DNA from: an uncultured Lentisphaerota bacterium
GTDB lineage: Bacteria; Verrucomicrobiota; Kiritimatiellia; RFP12; UBA1067
Assembly (NCBI GenBank): GCA_946413265.1
Contig: CAMKJU010000015.1
Span: 1-56,067 of the forward strand
DNA: 56,067 bases
Direction: 5' to 3'
The stretch's first letter is position 1. Every line of letters begins with the position of its first letter. The notes beneath the pieces are model-generated. The model was not told the DNA's origin and searched no databases. It saw nothing but the letters and a program-made list of their open reading frames with translations. The translations under genes and the position numbers were made by a program. Shown piece after piece: positions 8,420 to 56,067 of this stretch.

Positions 8420-9184
8420 TTAGTTTTCCTCTTCGGAATCGTCTTTGGAATCGCCGATGTTATCGAGATCGCGGTAGCGTCCTGCGCGATTCATTGCGCG
8501 AACTTCGCGCTTGGCGGCAACTAATCCGCGATACTGCCTGCCCCACTCTTCAAAAAGTGCCTTGCGAGCTTCGGGAGTGCCTGGAACATTCAACGGCGGG
8601 CGCGGTAGGCCCTTCTTGGGTCTTTTCCAATACCTACGGATTGTTGGTTCGCTAACGCCAGACCATAGTGCTGCTTGCCAAACGGGAGTCGCAAAGTTTG
8701 GATCGCGCTTGCAGCCCTTGCGGGAGCGTTTGGCGGCGGATTCGGCGTTTTCGCCCATCTGCTCGGAGAGCGCGGTGAGGGCGGCTGTGAGCGCGGCGTA
8801 CTCGGTGCGCCCGTCGCCGTTGCCGGTGCCGTTCTTGAGGATGTCGATGAAGCGACTGTGTGCGGCTTTTTGCGCGGCACGGGCGGCCTTGATCTGCGGC
8901 TCGAGCTGTTTGTCGGTCTTGCGGACGGCATCGAAGAGGCGCGACCATTCAACGGCGTATTCTTCGATGAGCATTTCGATGCTGCGCCGCATGGGGATGA
9001 CCATCGGCTTCTCAACCAGCACCTCGCGATAGGCCGTGAGGGCGTTGCGAAGTCCGTCGCGGTAGTCCGGCAAAAGCAGCTGGTTGCGGTCTGGATTGGC
9101 AGCGTCCAACATCCCGACCGCCGCGAGTTTGAGTTCGGGCGTCGAGTGTTTCAGGAGCTTGACTATGTGTTGGCTTGGAAGCAT
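8420..9184 (-). CDS. Putative DNA-binding protein, 254 aa
   Basis: Unknown family. The N-terminal half is helical. The C-terminus ('SRKGCKRDPNF' and helix-turn-helix-like 'SGVSEPTIRRYWKRPKKG', then 'AKREVRAMN') resembles the end of the protein at 86-1684, so both probably share a DNA-binding domain with different N-terminal partners. ATG 9184 is preferred over the GTG at 9190. An extended -10 (TGTTATAAT on the minus strand, TATAAT at 9199-9194) lies immediately upstream, divergent from the ABC-3C promoter, so the transcript would have almost no leader. A regulatory role for the neighbouring recombinase or defence genes is possible. Confidence 0.6.
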   Translation of the reverse strand: MLPSQHIVKLLKHSTPELKLAAVGMLDAANPDRNQLLLPDYRDGLRNALTAYREVLVEKPMVIPMRRSIEMLIEEYAVEWSRLFDAVRKTDKQLEPQIKAARAAQKAAHSRFIDILKNGTGNGDGRTEYAALTAALTALSEQMGENAESAAKRSRKGCKRDPNFATPVWQAALWSGVSEPTIRRYWKRPKKGLPRPPLNVPGTPEARKALFEEWGRQYRGLVAAKREVRAMNRAGRYRDLDNIGDSKDDSEEEN

Positions 9185-9231
9185 AAGCACAATATTATAA
9201 CATAATTTTGCGAATTACAGAGGTCGTGGAT

Positions 9232-9260
9232 TTGTTTCGCATCGGCAGATTTGGTATAAT
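9232..9260 (+). promoter_or_regulatory. Promoter of the ABC-3C-type operon
   Basis: TTGTTT, 17 bp, then TATAAT with a TGG extension (TGGTATAAT at 9252-9260). The start point would fall near 9267, which favours ATG 9284 over ATG 9266 for the first gene. Confidence 0.7.
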
Positions 9261-9283: not shown

Positions 9284-9802
9284 ATGCCACTTTTTTCTGA
9301 TGAAGATAATGAGGCCCTGCATAGAGAGGGCATGGCTTATCCGGATGGGCTCAAGACGCGCATCCCGGATGAGTTGGTCAATATTGACTTCGAGGTGCTG
9401 GAGGAGGCGGTCAAAAGCCTGCGCCTTCCCGACAACGTAGAAGCCGTGGATGACCTCAAGCGGATAAACGTCGATGAGAAGATGGCACTCAACGACATAC
9501 GGACGGACGGCAACAAGAAGATCATCGACGCATCGGTCTGCTACTCCGAGGAGGTCGGCAAGTTCATCACGCGCAAGGCCGTGAACGACAACGACGAGAA
9601 GTTCCCCTACCGGCTCAAGACGTTTTTCAAGGGAATATACGCGGAGTTCTACCACAACGGCATTCGCGGCGACGAGTTGTTCGACAGGCTTGCGAGCGAG
9701 ATCATCGGCATGATCCCGAAACCGGCGGCGCATCCGGCGGCGTATGCGATCCTCGTCCACCTCTTTGAAATCTGCGACATCTTCGAGAAGCCACAGCAAT
9801 GA
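9284..9802 (+). CDS. ABC-3C-type C-terminal-domain protein, 172 aa
   Basis: First gene of a three-gene cluster. The end of the protein ('AILVHLFEICDIFEKPQQ') and its helical make-up match my memory of the C-terminal domain of ABC-three-component (ABC-3C) systems, a set of predicted anti-invader systems in which this domain is normally fused to an effector. Here no effector domain precedes it: the protein is nearly all CTD. ATG 9284 is chosen because ATG 9266 would sit at the predicted transcription start. It overlaps the next gene by 4 bp (ATGA). Confidence 0.55.
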   Translation: MPLFSDEDNEALHREGMAYPDGLKTRIPDELVNIDFEVLEEAVKSLRLPDNVEAVDDLKRINVDEKMALNDIRTDGNKKIIDASVCYSEEVGKFITRKAVNDNDEKFPYRLKTFFKGIYAEFYHNGIRGDELFDRLASEIIGMIPKPAAHPAAYAILVHLFEICDIFEKPQQ

Positions 9803-51402: not shown

Positions 51403-52290
51403 ATGACGATAACAGAGGCAGAGATGATGAACCGCACCTTCGGGTGCGAGCTCGAGTACGAAGGGATCAGCCAGTCGACGGCGGCCCAGACGGTCGCCGA
51501 GGTGACCGGCGGAACCGCGAGGTACGTCGGCGGCTACTACGGAACTTGGGAGGTGAAGATGCCCGACGGACGGAAGTGGAAGGTGGTCAGCGACGGCAGC
51601 CTTGAGGGAACCTCCTCCGAGACGGTCACGCCGGTGATGAAGATCTGCGACCTGCCGACCCTTCAGAATGTGGTACGCGCCCTCCGGCGCAGGGGCGCGA
51701 GGGCGAACGTCCGCACGGGGCTTCACGTCCACGTCGGCGCGGCGGACTTCACAGCCGAGAACATCAAGAACCTCGTGCGCACCTTCTACAAGCAGGAGAC
51801 GCTGATCCTAAAGGCGGCGGGAACCCTGCCCTACCGCATCGCGGAGTACACGCAAACGACCGACCACACCTTCGTGGACAAGATTTGCAAAATGCGCTCC
51901 CCGACGATGGAGCGGATCAACGCCGCGTGGTTCGGAACCTACACGCCGCACCCCGACCACTACGACGACCACCGCTACCACGCGCTGAACCTCAACAACC
52001 TCTGGAACGAGAAGCGCACCATCGAGTACCGCTTCTTCAACGGCACGACCCACGCGGGCGAGGTCAAGACGGCGGTTCAGCTCGCGATCCTCATCGCCCT
52101 CCGCGCCAAGAACGCGAAGGCATCGAGCGCGAGGAACCCGCGCCCCTACAGCGCGGCGAGCGCGAAGTACGACTTCCGCGTTTTCCTCCTCCGCCTCGGC
52201 GCGAACGGCAACCTCTTCAAAACGATGAGGTTCCACCTTTGCAAGAACCTTCCGGGCTCGGCGGCTTGGAAAGACGGGCGGCACGACTGA
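51403..52290 (+). CDS. Amidoligase_2-like enzyme, 295 aa
   Basis: Predicted to form amide bonds using ATP (COOH-NH2 ligase related to glutamine synthetase). 'FGCELEYEG' (about residues 13-21) gives the metal-binding Glu residues, 'VRTGLHVHVGA' (about 102-112) the conserved His pair and 'KRTIEYRFFNGT' (about 204-215) the Glu/Arg of the active site, as in Amidoligase_2. It is encoded next to a GGCT gene, the classic partner in phage and plasmid amidoligase operons thought to add and remove peptide or amino-acid tags. The substrate is unknown. Confidence 0.8.
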   Translation: MTITEAEMMNRTFGCELEYEGISQSTAAQTVAEVTGGTARYVGGYYGTWEVKMPDGRKWKVVSDGSLEGTSSETVTPVMKICDLPTLQNVVRALRRRGARANVRTGLHVHVGAADFTAENIKNLVRTFYKQETLILKAAGTLPYRIAEYTQTTDHTFVDKICKMRSPTMERINAAWFGTYTPHPDHYDDHRYHALNLNNLWNEKRTIEYRFFNGTTHAGEVKTAVQLAILIALRAKNAKASSARNPRPYSAASAKYDFRVFLLRLGANGNLFKTMRFHLCKNLPGSAAWKDGRHD

Positions 52291-52298
52291 ACCGGAAC

Positions 52299-52326
52299 GC
52301 CCCGCCCCCCGCGAGGGGGACGGGGC
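52299..52326 (+). terminator. Intergenic hairpin
   Basis: GCCCCGCCCCC pairs with GGGGGACGGGGC (one bulged A); no U-tract. Separates amidoligase and GGCT genes. Confidence 0.6.
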
Positions 52327-52352
52327 AAACCCCGACGGAAAGGAAAAGAACG

Positions 52353-52913
52353 ATGAACAGATTTTACTTCGCCTACGGATCGAACATGAACCCCGAGCGC
52401 ATACGCGAGCGCATTCCGATGGCGCGGACGGTCGGCACCGCCCTCATCCTCGGCTGGCGGCTCAAGGAGCGGCTCTACGCCGACATCGAGCAGTCGAAGG
52501 GCGGGCGCGTGGACGGCGTCCTCTACCTCCTCACGCCGAGCGAAATCCACCGCCTCGACGCCTACGAGGGCTACCCGCACACCTACGGCTGCGTCGAGCT
52601 CGACGCAATCATCGACCCCTTGCACAAGGTCTCCGCGTTCACCTACGTCCTCACGGACGCGGCGAGGCGCGAGCGCGAGGGGAAGAAGTACCCGGAGGAC
52701 TACCGCCTCATCTGTTCGGACGGGGCGCAATGGCACGGCATCCGCGACGCCTTCCACCGCAAGGACGATCCGCCGTTCTCGCACATCCTCGCGAGGCGGA
52801 TGTGGTTCCCGCCCGTGCGGAAGGTTGCGACGTGGGCGGACGTTGCCGCCGCTGGCGCGAAGCGGGGCGCGGGCGTGGCGAAGAACGCGGCGAAAAAGCC
52901 GCTGAAAAAATAA
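52353..52913 (+). CDS. Gamma-glutamylcyclotransferase-like (GGCT) protein, 186 aa
   Basis: Opens with 'FYFAYGSNMNPERIRERIP' (residues 4-22), the substrate-loop signature of GGCT enzymes. 'GVLYLLTPSEIHRLDAYEGY' (about 55-74) contains the catalytic Glu region and 'YEGYPHTYGCVEL' continues the fold. Pairs with the upstream amidoligase. The C-terminal 30 residues are Ala/Lys-rich ('AAAGAKRGAGVAKNAAKKPL'), a basic tail that could bind nucleic acid. Confidence 0.85.
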   Translation: MNRFYFAYGSNMNPERIRERIPMARTVGTALILGWRLKERLYADIEQSKGGRVDGVLYLLTPSEIHRLDAYEGYPHTYGCVELDAIIDPLHKVSAFTYVLTDAARREREGKKYPEDYRLICSDGAQWHGIRDAFHRKDDPPFSHILARRMWFPPVRKVATWADVAAAGAKRGAGVAKNAAKKPLKK

Positions 52914-53334: not shown

Positions 53335-53366
53335 CGGACAAGGCCGTCCGCACTTTTTGTCTTTTT
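53335..53366 (+). terminator. Terminator ahead of the Cas12a-like locus
   Basis: Stem CGGAC/GTCCG with AAGGCC loop, followed by CACTTTTTGTCTTTTT. A longer alternative pairing exists (GCGGACGGCC at 53277-53286 with GGCCGTCCGC at 53342-53351). It would isolate the downstream promoter from upstream transcription. Confidence 0.6.
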
Positions 53367-53397: not shown

Positions 53398-53406
53398 TGA
53401 TATAAT
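53398..53406 (+). promoter_or_regulatory. Extended -10 promoter of the handle RNA and Cas12a-like gene
   Basis: TGATATAAT is a perfect extended -10. No good -35 lies 17 bp upstream (TGTCGG). The expected start, about 7 bases after the -10, is 53413, exactly the first base of the outer stem of the structured RNA. Confidence 0.75.
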
Positions 53407-53412
53407 ATATGG

Positions 53413-53468
53413 CGTTCGGCAGGGAAGGTAGTTTCTACTTTCGGTAGATCAAGTACCCCTGCCGGGCG
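53413..53468 (+). ncRNA. Structured RNA with a single Cas12a-type crRNA handle
   Basis: A 12-bp outer stem (CGTTCGGCAGGG at 53413-53424 with CCCTGCCGGGCG at 53457-53468, two wobbles) encloses TTTCTACTTTCGGTAGAT (53432-53449). The latter has the Cas12a direct-repeat handle: UCUAC/GUAGA stem, a UUUCG loop, leading UUU and trailing U. Only one copy exists in the window, so it is not an array. The bases where a spacer would begin (53450 on, CAAGTACCCCTGCC) are partly taken up by the outer stem. A competing hairpin (GTAG-TTT-CTAC, 53428-53438) is possible. It lies 56 nt before the Cas12a-like start codon, so it may be a free RNA or a 5' leader. Confidence 0.7.
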
Positions 53469-53523: not shown

Positions 53524-55452
53524 ATGACGCTGAATGAATCCATAGGACGTTTCAACGTCCGCAAGACCCTACGCTTCGAGATGAAGCCGCTCGGCAAGAC
53601 AGCCGAGAACCTCGACGCGTTCCTCGCAGAGGACGAGGAACGCGCATCTGACCTCCATACCATCAAGACGCTCATCGAGGCGGAGCATCTCGCGCTCGTG
53701 CGCAGGGTGTTCAACGCGCTCCCCGATCCGCTTCCGGGCTACAGCGAGATCAAGCACTCCTTCAAACGCGACCCCGCGTACCCGGTTCTCTCCGAGCGCG
53801 GGACTGCATCCGTGGTCAAGGCGATAATCGAACGGTGCAGCCAGACGCGGCTCAAGGTTCCGAAGCAGGTGCGCGACCTCGAACGTTGGCAGCCGCTCTT
53901 CATCAAATGGCACTGGCATTGCCTCTCGCTCTACACCGACAACGGCGAAAACTCCGTCGCCCGCGAATGGGCCGGCAGGCCGAAGGCGGACGTGGAGGCG
54001 ACGAGCCGTTTCCTGCGCGGGGCGCAGAAGGTCAAGCCGTCGCGCAACTACTGGTTCGACCGCGCACCGTTCCGCATGATGTTCGACAACCGCTCGTGCG
54101 GCATGGGCTGGCTGAAGGAGGATTTCAAGTATTCGCACACGTTCCTCATGAAGGACGACGACCGCGTCCTCATCGGCGTGACTCCGCGCACGTCAAAGGT
54201 CAATCCATTCACCATGCCCAATCCGCTGCCCGTCGAGGAGGCGTACCAGCTCTACGTCGAGACGGCGGACGAGAAGCCGCATTTTCGCGCCATCCCTCGC
54301 GCCCTCGTCGATGCGCCCGCGCACCACGGATCGCTGTTCCTCTTCGAGCTGTGCGGGCGCGGGTTGCGCAACAAGTCGAATCTCAACGCGATGTATCTCC
54401 GCGCCCTCCTCTCGGATGGCAACGTCGCCGACCGCGTGTTTCATCTCGACCGCGTGTGCGAGTTCTACGTGCGCAAGGGATCGGACATTCCGAAGGACGG
54501 CAAGCCGGAGCATTTTCGCCAGCGGTTCACGGAGTGCAAGTTCTTCGTCTCCCTGCACATCAGCTGCAACCCCGACCTCGTTCTTGCGGGGAACCGTCCG
54601 CAGGCGTTTGGCAACCTCGTCAAGTTCTACCAGAACGAGCCCTACGCAAAGTTCATCATCGTCGCATCCGCCAACGGCGGCTACACGATTGACGGCGAGT
54701 TCATGCCGACGGCGAAGGCGAACAGCGGCGGCATTGCCGGAACGCTGGCGCGGCTGGTCGTGGAGAAGAATGCCTACGTGCTGATCGACCCTGCCGTGCC
54801 GGAGGCGATCCGACGCGCCGTGAAGGATAAGTTCTCGTACATCGTCGTGCGCGGGCGCGATCCGTACACGGACGGCGGCATCATGCGCGGGTACCAGCTC
54901 GTGGACAGGGTTTTCGCCGGAAAGCCGGAGGACTTGCAGCTCGCCGCGCTGGGGCGGAGGAGCCAGGGCGCGGCGAAACGCGAAGCGGCAGAGAAGGCGG
55001 CGGCGGAGCGGGAGGCAAAGGCGGCGGCGAAAGCGGCGGAGAAAGCCGCGAAGCGGGCGTATGCCGAAGAGCAGGCGCGTAAGGCCGCCGAAAAGGAAGC
55101 CGCCCGCAAGAAGGTGATGGAGGAGGGTTCGACGGAAGTGTTCGACGCACCGATCTTCAAGACCGGGAAATTCGTGTTCAAGTTCGGGTACAAGACCTCC
55201 GACAACATCCGCCACGAGGCTTTCTGTCACGGTGACGCGAAGGAGGACGTGTACGCGAAACTGCGGACGGTCGGTGTGCGTCCGTACCGCGTGGAGTGCG
55301 ACGATCCGGAGTTTACGAACGCCGCGCCCGCTCCCGTGCAGCCACTCGGCATCGCCGACCGGCTCAAGCGGCTTAACGCACTAAAGGAGGAGGGGCTTCT
55401 CACAGAAGAGGAGTACGCCACGCAACGCGCAAAAATCATCGCGGAGCTGTAG
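53524..55452 (+). CDS. Truncated, nuclease-dead Cas12a-derived protein with C-terminal fusion, 642 aa
   Basis: Residues 8-26 ('RFNVRKTLRFEMKPLGKT') match the Cas12a WED-I start. Residues about 27-175 replace the about 500-aa REC lobe. Residues 180-222 ('FRMMFDNRSCGMGW', 'DDRVLIGVTP') match WED-II; the PI domain is absent. Residues 268-348 ('LFLFELCGRGLRNKSNLNAM', 'FYVRKGS', 'FRQRFTECKFFVSLHISCN') match WED-III. At 378-382 'IIVAS' replaces 'IIGID', losing the RuvC-I Asp; Asp422 replaces the RuvC-II Glu; 'RDPYTDGGIMRGYQL' (445-459) follows, then Cas12a likeness ends, so Nuc and RuvC-III are missing. An Ala/Lys/Glu helix (480-533), a GspF-N-like module (549-590) and a SHOCT domain (608-642) are added. 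No strong SD precedes ATG 53524; TAG 53506 closes the frame upstream. Confidence 0.85.
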   Translation: MTLNESIGRFNVRKTLRFEMKPLGKTAENLDAFLAEDEERASDLHTIKTLIEAEHLALVRRVFNALPDPLPGYSEIKHSFKRDPAYPVLSERGTASVVKAIIERCSQTRLKVPKQVRDLERWQPLFIKWHWHCLSLYTDNGENSVAREWAGRPKADVEATSRFLRGAQKVKPSRNYWFDRAPFRMMFDNRSCGMGWLKEDFKYSHTFLMKDDDRVLIGVTPRTSKVNPFTMPNPLPVEEAYQLYVETADEKPHFRAIPRALVDAPAHHGSLFLFELCGRGLRNKSNLNAMYLRALLSDGNVADRVFHLDRVCEFYVRKGSDIPKDGKPEHFRQRFTECKFFVSLHISCNPDLVLAGNRPQAFGNLVKFYQNEPYAKFIIVASANGGYTIDGEFMPTAKANSGGIAGTLARLVVEKNAYVLIDPAVPEAIRRAVKDKFSYIVVRGRDPYTDGGIMRGYQLVDRVFAGKPEDLQLAALGRRSQGAAKREAAEKAAAEREAKAAAKAAEKAAKRAYAEEQARKAAEKEAARKKVMEEGSTEVFDAPIFKTGKFVFKFGYKTSDNIRHEAFCHGDAKEDVYAKLRTVGVRPYRVECDDPEFTNAAPAPVQPLGIADRLKRLNALKEEGLLTEEEYATQRAKIIAEL

Positions 55453-55454
55453 TC

Positions 55455-56067
55455 ATGCCTGTAAAGCCGCCAAAGGTGAGAACGGACAAGTTTCTGGTGA
55501 TCCGTGACCCGGCGAAGTCCATCGGGTTGTGGTCGCATCGTGTGGAGTTCTCTTCGACCCTCCATCCCGTCGCTCCGACGCGGCTGACGCTCGGACGTTT
55601 CTTCAACGACGATCTCGTCCGCCACGAGACATACGCCGAGGCGGTGGAGATGATGCGGGCGAAGGGCTGGAAGAAGAGTTCGGCGCAGAAGCTGAAGGAG
55701 TATGCGGCGCAGTATCTCGGCGAGAGGTTCGACGAGACGGGCAAGGGCGAGTGGCCGCCTGTGCCGAGGTGGTTCAGGGCGTGGCACAATTTTTCGAGGT
55801 GGCTGGCGTATGCCAAGACCGAAAAGCCGCTCGGCGACGTCCGGCTGTCGTTCGGATACTCCGTCACAGGCTGTGACTGCGGCGATGCGAACCACCGCAC
55901 GTCACGTGTCATTTTCCTCAAGAAGAATGGTCGCAACTTCATCGCCGTCATGATGAAGGACGGCTGGTACGGATGGGACGTCATCGAGAAAACCGCCTAT
56001 CAGTCCGACCCGTATGAAAGGCTCATCCTCGCGGGGACTCGCGGCGTTGTCTGGCAGACGGTAGATG
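55455..56067 (+). CDS. Second gene of the Cas12a-like locus, partial, at least 204 aa
   Basis: Starts 2 nt after the Cas12a-like stop and stays open to the window edge, so it is co-transcribed and truncated here. The first 120 residues are basic and not recognised ('MPVKPPKVRTDKFLVIRDPA', later 'WPPVPRWFRAWHNFSRWLAY'). Residues about 128-195 ('VRLSFGYSVTGCDCGD', 'VIFLKKNGRNFIAVMMKDG', 'AYQSDPYERLIL') have the layout of the Cas12a WED-II region ('KFKLNF..GWD', 'K.G.YYLGIM', 'GYEKMVYKLL'). It could be a second Cas12a-derived subunit. The match is weaker than for the first gene. Confidence 0.5.
   Translation, partial: MPVKPPKVRTDKFLVIRDPAKSIGLWSHRVEFSSTLHPVAPTRLTLGRFFNDDLVRHETYAEAVEMMRAKGWKKSSAQKLKEYAAQYLGERFDETGKGEWPPVPRWFRAWHNFSRWLAYAKTEKPLGDVRLSFGYSVTGCDCGDANHRTSRVIFLKKNGRNFIAVMMKDGWYGWDVIEKTAYQSDPYERLILAGTRGVVWQTVD

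Follow-up and report, generated by a model that had tools for sequence, protein, structure and literature searches.

A prophage gene for a miniaturised, probably nuclease-dead Cas12a derivative that may hold Cas12a-type handle RNAs

What use could a phage make of a Cas12a that has probably lost the parts for reading and cutting DNA? The question is raised by a gene at 53524..55452 on the plus strand of contig CAMKJU010000015.1, from an uncultured bacterium of the Kiritimatiellia; the whole stretch analysed, 56,067 nucleotides, is referred to here as the window. The region is a prophage, a virus-like stretch of the bacterial genome. By its sequence, the 642-amino-acid product, called mini-Cas12a in the following, is almost certainly a Cas12a derivative, and a predicted hairpin RNA with a Cas12a-type handle precedes its gene. 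As the best explanation of the whole we propose, with a probability of roughly 0.42, that this derivative binds handle hairpins without a guide, does not cut, and serves as an RNA sink that blocks type V-A CRISPR.

The relationship to Cas12a is evident from searches with the protein and with its family. Mini-Cas12a matched the PADLOC Cas12a models (best E 1.7e-19) and the NCBIfam model cas_Cpf1 (TIGR04330; E 1.1e-14, 53 bits, below the model's 300-bit cut-off), and a single-sequence search of the PDB retrieved FnCas12a at 8.6e-14. With a profile of 30 family sequences the match to FnCas12a reached 1.8e-25; among the 26 sequences listed by the PDB profile search, 24 are named Cas12a or Cpf1, one ReChb and one nuclease (6iv6, MbCas12a by title). 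Against seven natural Cas12a proteins (loci L005-L009 and L011, genome G131), hhalign aligned the family profile over 460 columns with a probability of 99.5, E 3.4e-22 and 24% identity, corresponding to residues 3-1007 of the 1252 in L005. The predicted fold superposes on FnCas12a across residues 1-466, with WED and RuvC folds of the Cas12a type. The effector matches found were all to Cas12a, a Pfam scan listed no TnpB family, and a structure search of BFVD, that library alone, gave no match at E 0.001 or better. The initial annotation had read the open reading frame (ATG at 53524, stop codon ending at 55452) as a miniaturised, dead Cas12a derivative; matches this far beyond chance, together with the modelled superposition and the profile alignment, bear that reading out.

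The profile alignment also confirms the annotated collinear order; the matched parts run through WED-I, the start of REC1, WED-II, WED-III, RuvC-I and RuvC-II up to the GG.LRGYQL segment. The features of the gene are as follows.

53524..55452, plus strand: mini-Cas12a-like gene, 642 amino acids (open reading frame, hidden Markov model (HMM) and PDB matches, structural superposition, profile alignment)
53524..53595, plus strand: WED-I like, residues 1-24 (PDB match, profile alignment; 4 of 9 Cas12a-invariant positions retained)
53596..54036, plus strand: REC remnant, residues 25-171, with the family motif RC...W..L..KWHWxC (family alignments, profile alignment)
54037..54189, plus strand: WED-II like, residues 172-222 (PDB profile match, profile alignment)
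54235..54579, plus strand: WED-III like, residues 238-352 (PDB profile match, profile alignment)
54637..54918, plus strand: remnant of RuvC-I/II (residues 372-465) that has GGIMRGYQL close to the end (profile alignment)
54664-54666, plus strand: A381, at the RuvC-I Asp position (profile alignment)
54787-54789, plus strand: D422, at the RuvC-II Glu position (profile alignment)
54925..55119, plus strand: residues 468-532, predicted as a long helix that probably forms a coiled coil
55168..55311, plus strand: residues 549-596 ('..YKTSDN.RHE..'), a small alpha/beta domain to which further proteins of the host and of related genomes have relatives
55357..55437, plus strand: SHOCT-like C-terminus, residues 612-638 (Pfam PF09851, 1.1e-05, 25.5 bits, under the 27-bit cut-off)

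What has been lost is extensive. The alignment contains no counterpart of PI, the bridge helix, Nuc, RuvC-III or a complete REC1/REC2 lobe, and REC2 is gone; the REC remnant spans about 147 residues, close to the 150 first estimated, and the absence of PI, Nuc and RuvC-III had likewise been recognised. In Cas12a, PI, REC2 and most of REC1 read the protospacer-adjacent motif and hold the guide-target duplex. Of the RuvC positions that we take to be the catalytic Asp-Glu-Asp of Cas12a, mini-Cas12a has A381 at the first and D422 at the second, and the third is absent. The annotated replacement of the RuvC-I Asp was thus right in that the residue is not acidic, with the correction that the aligned residue is Ala381 and not Ser382; the change of the RuvC-II Glu to Asp is true of this protein and is no rule of the family. 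Positional counts were made over the 81 rows of alignment A2, 11 of which lack the N-terminus; of the 113 mini-Cas12a homologues, 29 went into A1 and 77 into A2, and A3 takes 26 of the 48 homologues of a partner protein described below. Asp stands in the RuvC-I column in 2 of 81 and Glu in 3, and the RuvC-II column has Asp in 59, Ala in 14 and Glu in one.

The site for processing of precursor CRISPR RNA (pre-crRNA) appears to be affected as well, its aligned positions being deleted or replaced. We take H843, K852 and K869 of FnCas12a, counted along the 8y0b sequence, to be the processing residues. The WED-III loop between two conserved arginines that carries H843 and K852 comprises 38 residues in FnCas12a and 16 in 76 of 81 family members, so that both residues are deleted, and K869 aligns with F331 (Phe in 77 of 81). 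R317 and R332 are conserved in all 81 sequences and N286 in 80. Counting a position as kept if at least 80% of the family retain a residue invariant in the seven Cas12a proteins, WED-I keeps 4 of 9, WED-II 3 of 8 and WED-III 10 of 21 (17 of 38 for WED as a whole, which in Cas12a holds the crRNA 5' handle together with RuvC), the REC remnant 6 of 12, RuvC-I 0 of 13 and RuvC-II 7 of 24. This pattern would fit a protein that no longer cuts DNA or processes RNA and has kept part of its RNA-holding side.

The Cas12a-like part stops near residue 466, and the final ~175 residues are made up of the helix, the alpha/beta domain and the SHOCT-like end. A protein encoded at 1695-2552 on the minus strand of the window carries the same small domain ('..YKTSDG.RHED..'), and domains of this type recur in L004, L059, L079 and L083. 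Within the REC remnant, the motif RC...W..L..KWHWxC occupies residues 104-133 (window 53833-53922); its C105 and C133 are nearly invariant and are replaced in the L001 relative.

The second component of the locus is the predicted hairpin RNA. It follows a promoter-like motif and precedes the ATG by 55 nucleotides, all three being on one strand.

53335..53350, plus strand: terminator-like hairpin with T-run that would separate the cassette from the upstream genes (consensus scan)
53398..53406, plus strand: extended -10 promoter-like TGATATAAT (motif only)
53414..53468, plus strand: hairpin RNA, 55 nucleotides, in which 53415-53424 pairs with 53457-53466 as a 10-bp outer stem around a Cas12a-type handle
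53432..53449, plus strand: Cas12a handle motif TTTCTAC-TTTCG-GTAGAT (pattern match)

The window contains a single match to the handle pattern TCTACN3-8GTAGA, where 0.02 would be expected, and the natural Cas12a-type repeats in L006-L011 share the handle form. Pair probabilities are 0.99-1.0 in the outer stem (0.4 for its innermost pair) and 0.72-0.76 in the handle stem, and the hairpin outperforms its shuffles (z -5.2, 0 of 200). The sequence that follows the handle folds back on the 5' flank, which leaves no free guide in the hairpin; with that sequence locked in a stem, the hairpin would not be an ordinary crRNA. The motif TGNTATAAT occurs four times in the window against 0.04 expected, once upstream of the mini-Cas12a gene, and within 700 bases upstream at 4 of the 10 family gene starts examined (the window gene and the partner gene in L001, G110 and G083). 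A sigma-70 scan, which requires a -35 box, did not list TGATATAAT at 53398..53406, and the terminator call is weak because the consensus scan found three such elements in the region against 3.6 expected by chance. Two further copies of TGNTATAAT stand divergently at window 9194-9260, between a gene at 8420-9190 (minus strand) and one at 9744 (plus strand; DUF2326, phrog_5467), and are possibly a prophage control region. Upstream of the cassette, an amidoligase gene and a gamma-glutamyl-cyclotransferase-like gene adjoin at window 51403-52913.

When 345 class genomes were scanned for TTTCTACN3-6GTAGAT, 30 had a match, and one of the matches, in G107, lies in a 55-nucleotide relative of the window hairpin that aligns without gaps (86% mean column identity) and also stands behind TGATATAAT. 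All 15 pairs are retained between the two, with two double (compensatory) and four one-sided changes, and slid controls pair in 40-57% of cells against 100%. A covariance model built from these two sequences (R1) finds just those two in 114 family-level genomes, so that RNA and gene co-occur in two of the three gene-carrying genomes and in none of the 111 others; as both source sequences come from gene-carrying genomes, this 2-of-2 co-occurrence is suggestive and not independent. The model had no match in G108, in L001-L004 (L001 and L002 included) or at the partner loci. The 4.7-Mb host genome shows no excess of the handle pattern, with 2 matches where the reversed pattern has 32, and a search of Rfam gave nothing credible for the RNA. 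At L059, 4230-4284 on the minus strand, the G107 hairpin stands alone between the gene of a YRSSDGVRHTD-domain protein and a stretch without mini-Cas12a; a T-run that the consensus scan did not call as a terminator follows its stem, and by eye, without a Pfam hit, a recombinase-like reading frame lies two genes away.

Among viral sequences, the exact core GGTAGTTTCTACTTYCGGTAGAT was not found in IMG/VR, and a search with a looser handle pattern retrieved 21 viral stretches, in none of which seven family or partner proteins had a match below E 0.09. The promoter-plus-handle pattern occurred in at least 120 stretches of viral contigs. The 80 loci examined were taken for chance in AT-rich DNA, having diverse loops and encoding no family member, partner or Cas12a (E 1e-3). 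Of 78 single-repeat viral loci, 28 are without outer pairing and 50 have some, including 19 with at least 10 outer pairs. A further candidate, the solitary handle motif AATTTCTACTCTTGTAGATAAAG at L061 ~1763 (plus strand; genome G063, in which no Cas12a was found), stands behind TGATATAAT with other flanks and was rejected as a third copy (z -0.34, 69 of 200 shuffles; model E 4.1). Four copies of TTTCTACTTTGAGTAGAT at exact 335-base spacing in G271:C1:2912282-2913304 are probably a repeat inside a gene.

Mini-Cas12a belongs to a family and is accompanied by a second gene. A search of 5.8 billion proteins yielded 113 homologues of 40-99% identity and 434-817 amino acids, none of them functionally named, and 32 columns are invariant across the 81 family sequences. 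At E 1e-20 the gene is present in three of the 345 class genomes, all among the 114 of the family-level set: the host (G000), G107 and G108, the latter two with copies that match contigs of Kiritimatiellae metagenome-assembled genomes from sheep rectum (L003) and water deer rectum (L004). Two IMG/VR phage contigs encode a full-length relative of 27% identity. The initial annotation did not include the gene that begins just downstream of mini-Cas12a, a second Cas12a derivative.

55455..56066, plus strand: first 204 codons of the partner gene, which is truncated where the contig stops (two tandem Cas12a-like cores)

The partner fragment is 35% identical to L001:7118-9931 (1e-31), its family aligns to the mini-Cas12a profile at E 2.8e-20, and contig C56 of the host assembly continues the profile match at its beginning; the second core is assigned from hhalign and HMM hits, outside the coverage of the structural comparison. 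Among its 48 homologues one is named (P0127, with a methyltransferase name that does not fit). The two genes stand side by side in three phage records, and solo copies occur in Kiritimatiellae contigs (the mini gene in L003 and L004, the partner in L083).

Searches in other collections were sparse in hits. With tblastn, mini-Cas12a found nothing in INPHARED phages or PLSDB plasmids, and the partner protein P0129 found nothing in phages. Single-sequence scans of viral contigs gave no relative with mini-Cas12a (6 stretches) or the partner fragment (4 stretches), and in profile scans 2 of 18 stretches were relatives for the mini profile and the same two phages, 2 of 52, for the partner profile. 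A scan of genome contigs gave relatives in 9 of 57 stretches, two of this family (L003, L004) and seven (L005-L011) ordinary Cas12a loci or parts of them. An evenly drawn sample of the phylum contained one carrier in 387, the host itself, and a search with the L001 mini protein gave three homologues.

The solo copies stand head-to-head with a gene whose product starts like 'MKKLIFAAAAVAGMGAFALESANVVGYN' (L003 ~587, minus strand; L004 ~6081, minus strand; L083 ~411, plus strand). Five such motifs occur in 199,404 bases of related loci, the remaining two in the window. A regulator-target pair is possible; L003 and L004 are of the same genus, so the arrangement may represent two events. At L079, 9650-12454 on the plus strand, the partner gene adjoins, as judged by eye throughout, a Fic-family-like gene, with a recombinase-like gene upstream and cell-wall and proline-biosynthesis-like genes beyond the Fic-like gene.

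How could such a protein work? Mini-Cas12a would fold as modelled and probably binds handle-type RNA, to judge from the positions it has kept. It would hold a handle-type hairpin without processing it, reading DNA or cutting. The hairpin would form the leading part of the gene's own transcript and, once bound, would either feed back on expression or act as a decoy, the biological target being a Cas12a system. Mini-Cas12a would in this way be a sink that sequesters Cas12a-type RNAs, perhaps as an anti-CRISPR. A main role against type V-A CRISPR is put forward tentatively, and it is a shade more speculative that phages of Kiritimatiellae captured a Cas12a, discarded its DNA-reading and DNA-cutting parts and reused its handle grip, in a guide-less set of one-core and two-core proteins with a handle hairpin of their own, to soak up Cas12a-type RNAs. 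The sink is favoured because of the anatomy of the protein and the precedent of Racr, as described in the part available of PMC10651486. It is supported by the collinear profile match, by the superposition on FnCas12a, by invariant positions kept in WED and in the REC remnant where RuvC-I has kept none, and by a handle-type hairpin between promoter-like motif and start codon that offers no free guide and has a 55-nucleotide relative, with two double compensatory changes, in a second gene-carrying genome.

Several observations weigh against the sink. Its weak point is the host, whose genome contains no other Cas12a match and no Cas12a-type array; of the handle motifs in its 4.7 Mb, one lies beside the gene and one, unrelated, elsewhere, and neither a linked array nor linked cas genes were found. 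Cas12a exceeds the cut-off in one of 345 class genomes, and a role purely as an anti-CRISPR does not suit the solo copies in genomes without Cas12a. The hairpin RNA does not always accompany the gene: a search of five genomes or records found it in two and not in G108 or the two IMG/VR phages, the handle motif lies within 700 bases upstream at one of ten family gene starts, the window's own, and in G107, a 63%-complete assembly, the RNA is on contig C76 and the gene on C105. The window hairpin has a rival fold of equal energy (-28.5 versus -28.4 kcal/mol), the shuffle control (a) on the two-sequence alignment A5 was not significant (119 of 500), and the L059 copy is moderately better than its shuffles (z -2.3, 4 of 200). 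Nor is an outer stem alone a mark of the hairpin RNA, given that 19 of 78 presumed-chance viral loci have at least 10 outer pairs. In the protein, 21 of 38 Cas12a-invariant WED positions are changed in the family, and in 75 of 81 members Asn replaces the His of NLHT in WED. Two genes with three cores and additional C-terminal domains also exceed what a simple sink would require. As regards targets, 17 30-mers that follow Cas12a-type repeats in G131 and G077 were compared with nine phage or island sources, and the longest matches, 14 nucleotides ungapped and 15 with one mismatch allowed, are at the level of chance. In G077, three array-like repeats stand where one of its contigs ends.

The main rival, which we regard as unlikely, keeps handle binding and dispenses with CRISPR conflict: the protein would bind the leader hairpin of its own transcript as feedback, and similar RNAs in trans, to control expression. 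Such control would suit a hairpin that follows the promoter-like motif and precedes the start codon in the same orientation, as it would a host without another Cas12a match, and in G107 the hairpin stands alone behind its own promoter-like motif. The two equal-energy folds share the CUAC strand, which pairs upstream in the alternative, as a switch would; in the L059 copy from G107, however, the alternative is 4 kcal/mol worse, so that a switch is not shared. The other nine gene starts have no handle motif within 700 bases and the model has no hit in L001-L004, and feedback alone leaves the purpose of the protein unexplained. Less likely still is a reading in which the Cas12a core is a reused assembly scaffold, with coiled coil, SHOCT-like end and a two-core partner, that binds no handle and has the hairpin beside it by coincidence. 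The many changed WED positions, the missing hairpin at the other loci searched and the frequency of outer pairing around handle-like motifs speak for it. It would nevertheless have to accommodate a motif expected 0.02 times in the window that lies just upstream of this very gene, the confinement of RNA plus gene to two of three carriers and none of 111 other genomes, and WED positions retained where those of RuvC-I are lost.

We consider it improbable that mini-Cas12a is an RNA-guided, nuclease-dead regulator that silences a host gene in the manner of TldR. A dead nuclease in a prophage would be in line with TldR as described in the accessible portion of PMC13418256, and solo L003 and L004, from one genus, and partner L083 are head-to-head with one kind of secreted-protein-like gene; yet PI, REC2 and most of REC1 are gone, in the one RNA found the sequence after the handle is tied up in a stem, and there is no array. 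That the gene is a Cas12a pseudogene in decay or an artefact of assembly, for which the lost nuclease parts and the position near the contig end might be cited, is hardly credible in view of 113 homologues of such varied identity and length, the 32 invariant columns and the pairing with the partner in three phage records.

If the RNA sink is the true role, mini-Cas12a would be an anti-CRISPR made from the enzyme that it blocks and the first branch of Cas12a to use RNA without RNA guidance, and the RNA-holding core of Cas12a would be at hand as a natural protein of ~466 residues. A question open to direct test is whether phages compete for crRNA and in this way block type V-A immunity. Titles and opening parts of abstracts in open-access PMC, to which our literature search was directed with subscription papers and preprints outside its scope, held no description of such a protein.

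Among known systems, Racr is the nearest on the RNA side. According to the portion of PMC10651486 at hand, solitary repeat units of phages often lie just downstream of a predicted promoter and include type V-A units, which inhibit the Moraxella bovoculi system and are reported beside acr genes; 83% of the units match the CRISPR subtype of the host. The window hairpin resembles these units in being solitary, Cas12a-repeat-like and just downstream of a promoter-like motif in a prophage. It differs from them, as far as that portion describes them, in being closed by a 10-bp outer stem and followed by a Cas12a-derived gene, and the host genome contains no other Cas12a, so that a subtype match is lacking. 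On the protein side, Cas12m, a naturally non-cleaving Cas12 (PMC10442227, PMC11013384, as partially available), is like mini-Cas12a a natural type V protein that, for the latter by sequence, would not cut DNA; Cas12m binds target DNA as a CRISPR effector, whereas the mini-Cas12a family has neither target-reading parts nor an array. TldR, in the sections available of PMC13418256, comprises nuclease-dead TnpB-derived proteins adopted by phages as RNA-guided repressors and shares with mini-Cas12a a nuclease-dead protein of type V lineage in a prophage with an RNA element alongside. Mini-Cas12a, unlike TldR so described, is related to Cas12a and not to TnpB, has lost the target-reading parts, and is accompanied by a hairpin that, considered alone, has no free 3' guide of the TldR type. 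A dead, stripped Cas12a that keeps the handle grip without the guide-reading parts would thus be a different fate of a CRISPR effector from the dead TnpB of that source. We regard mini-Cas12a as a putative exapted dead type V protein that differs from TldR in its descent and in the loss of its target-reading parts.

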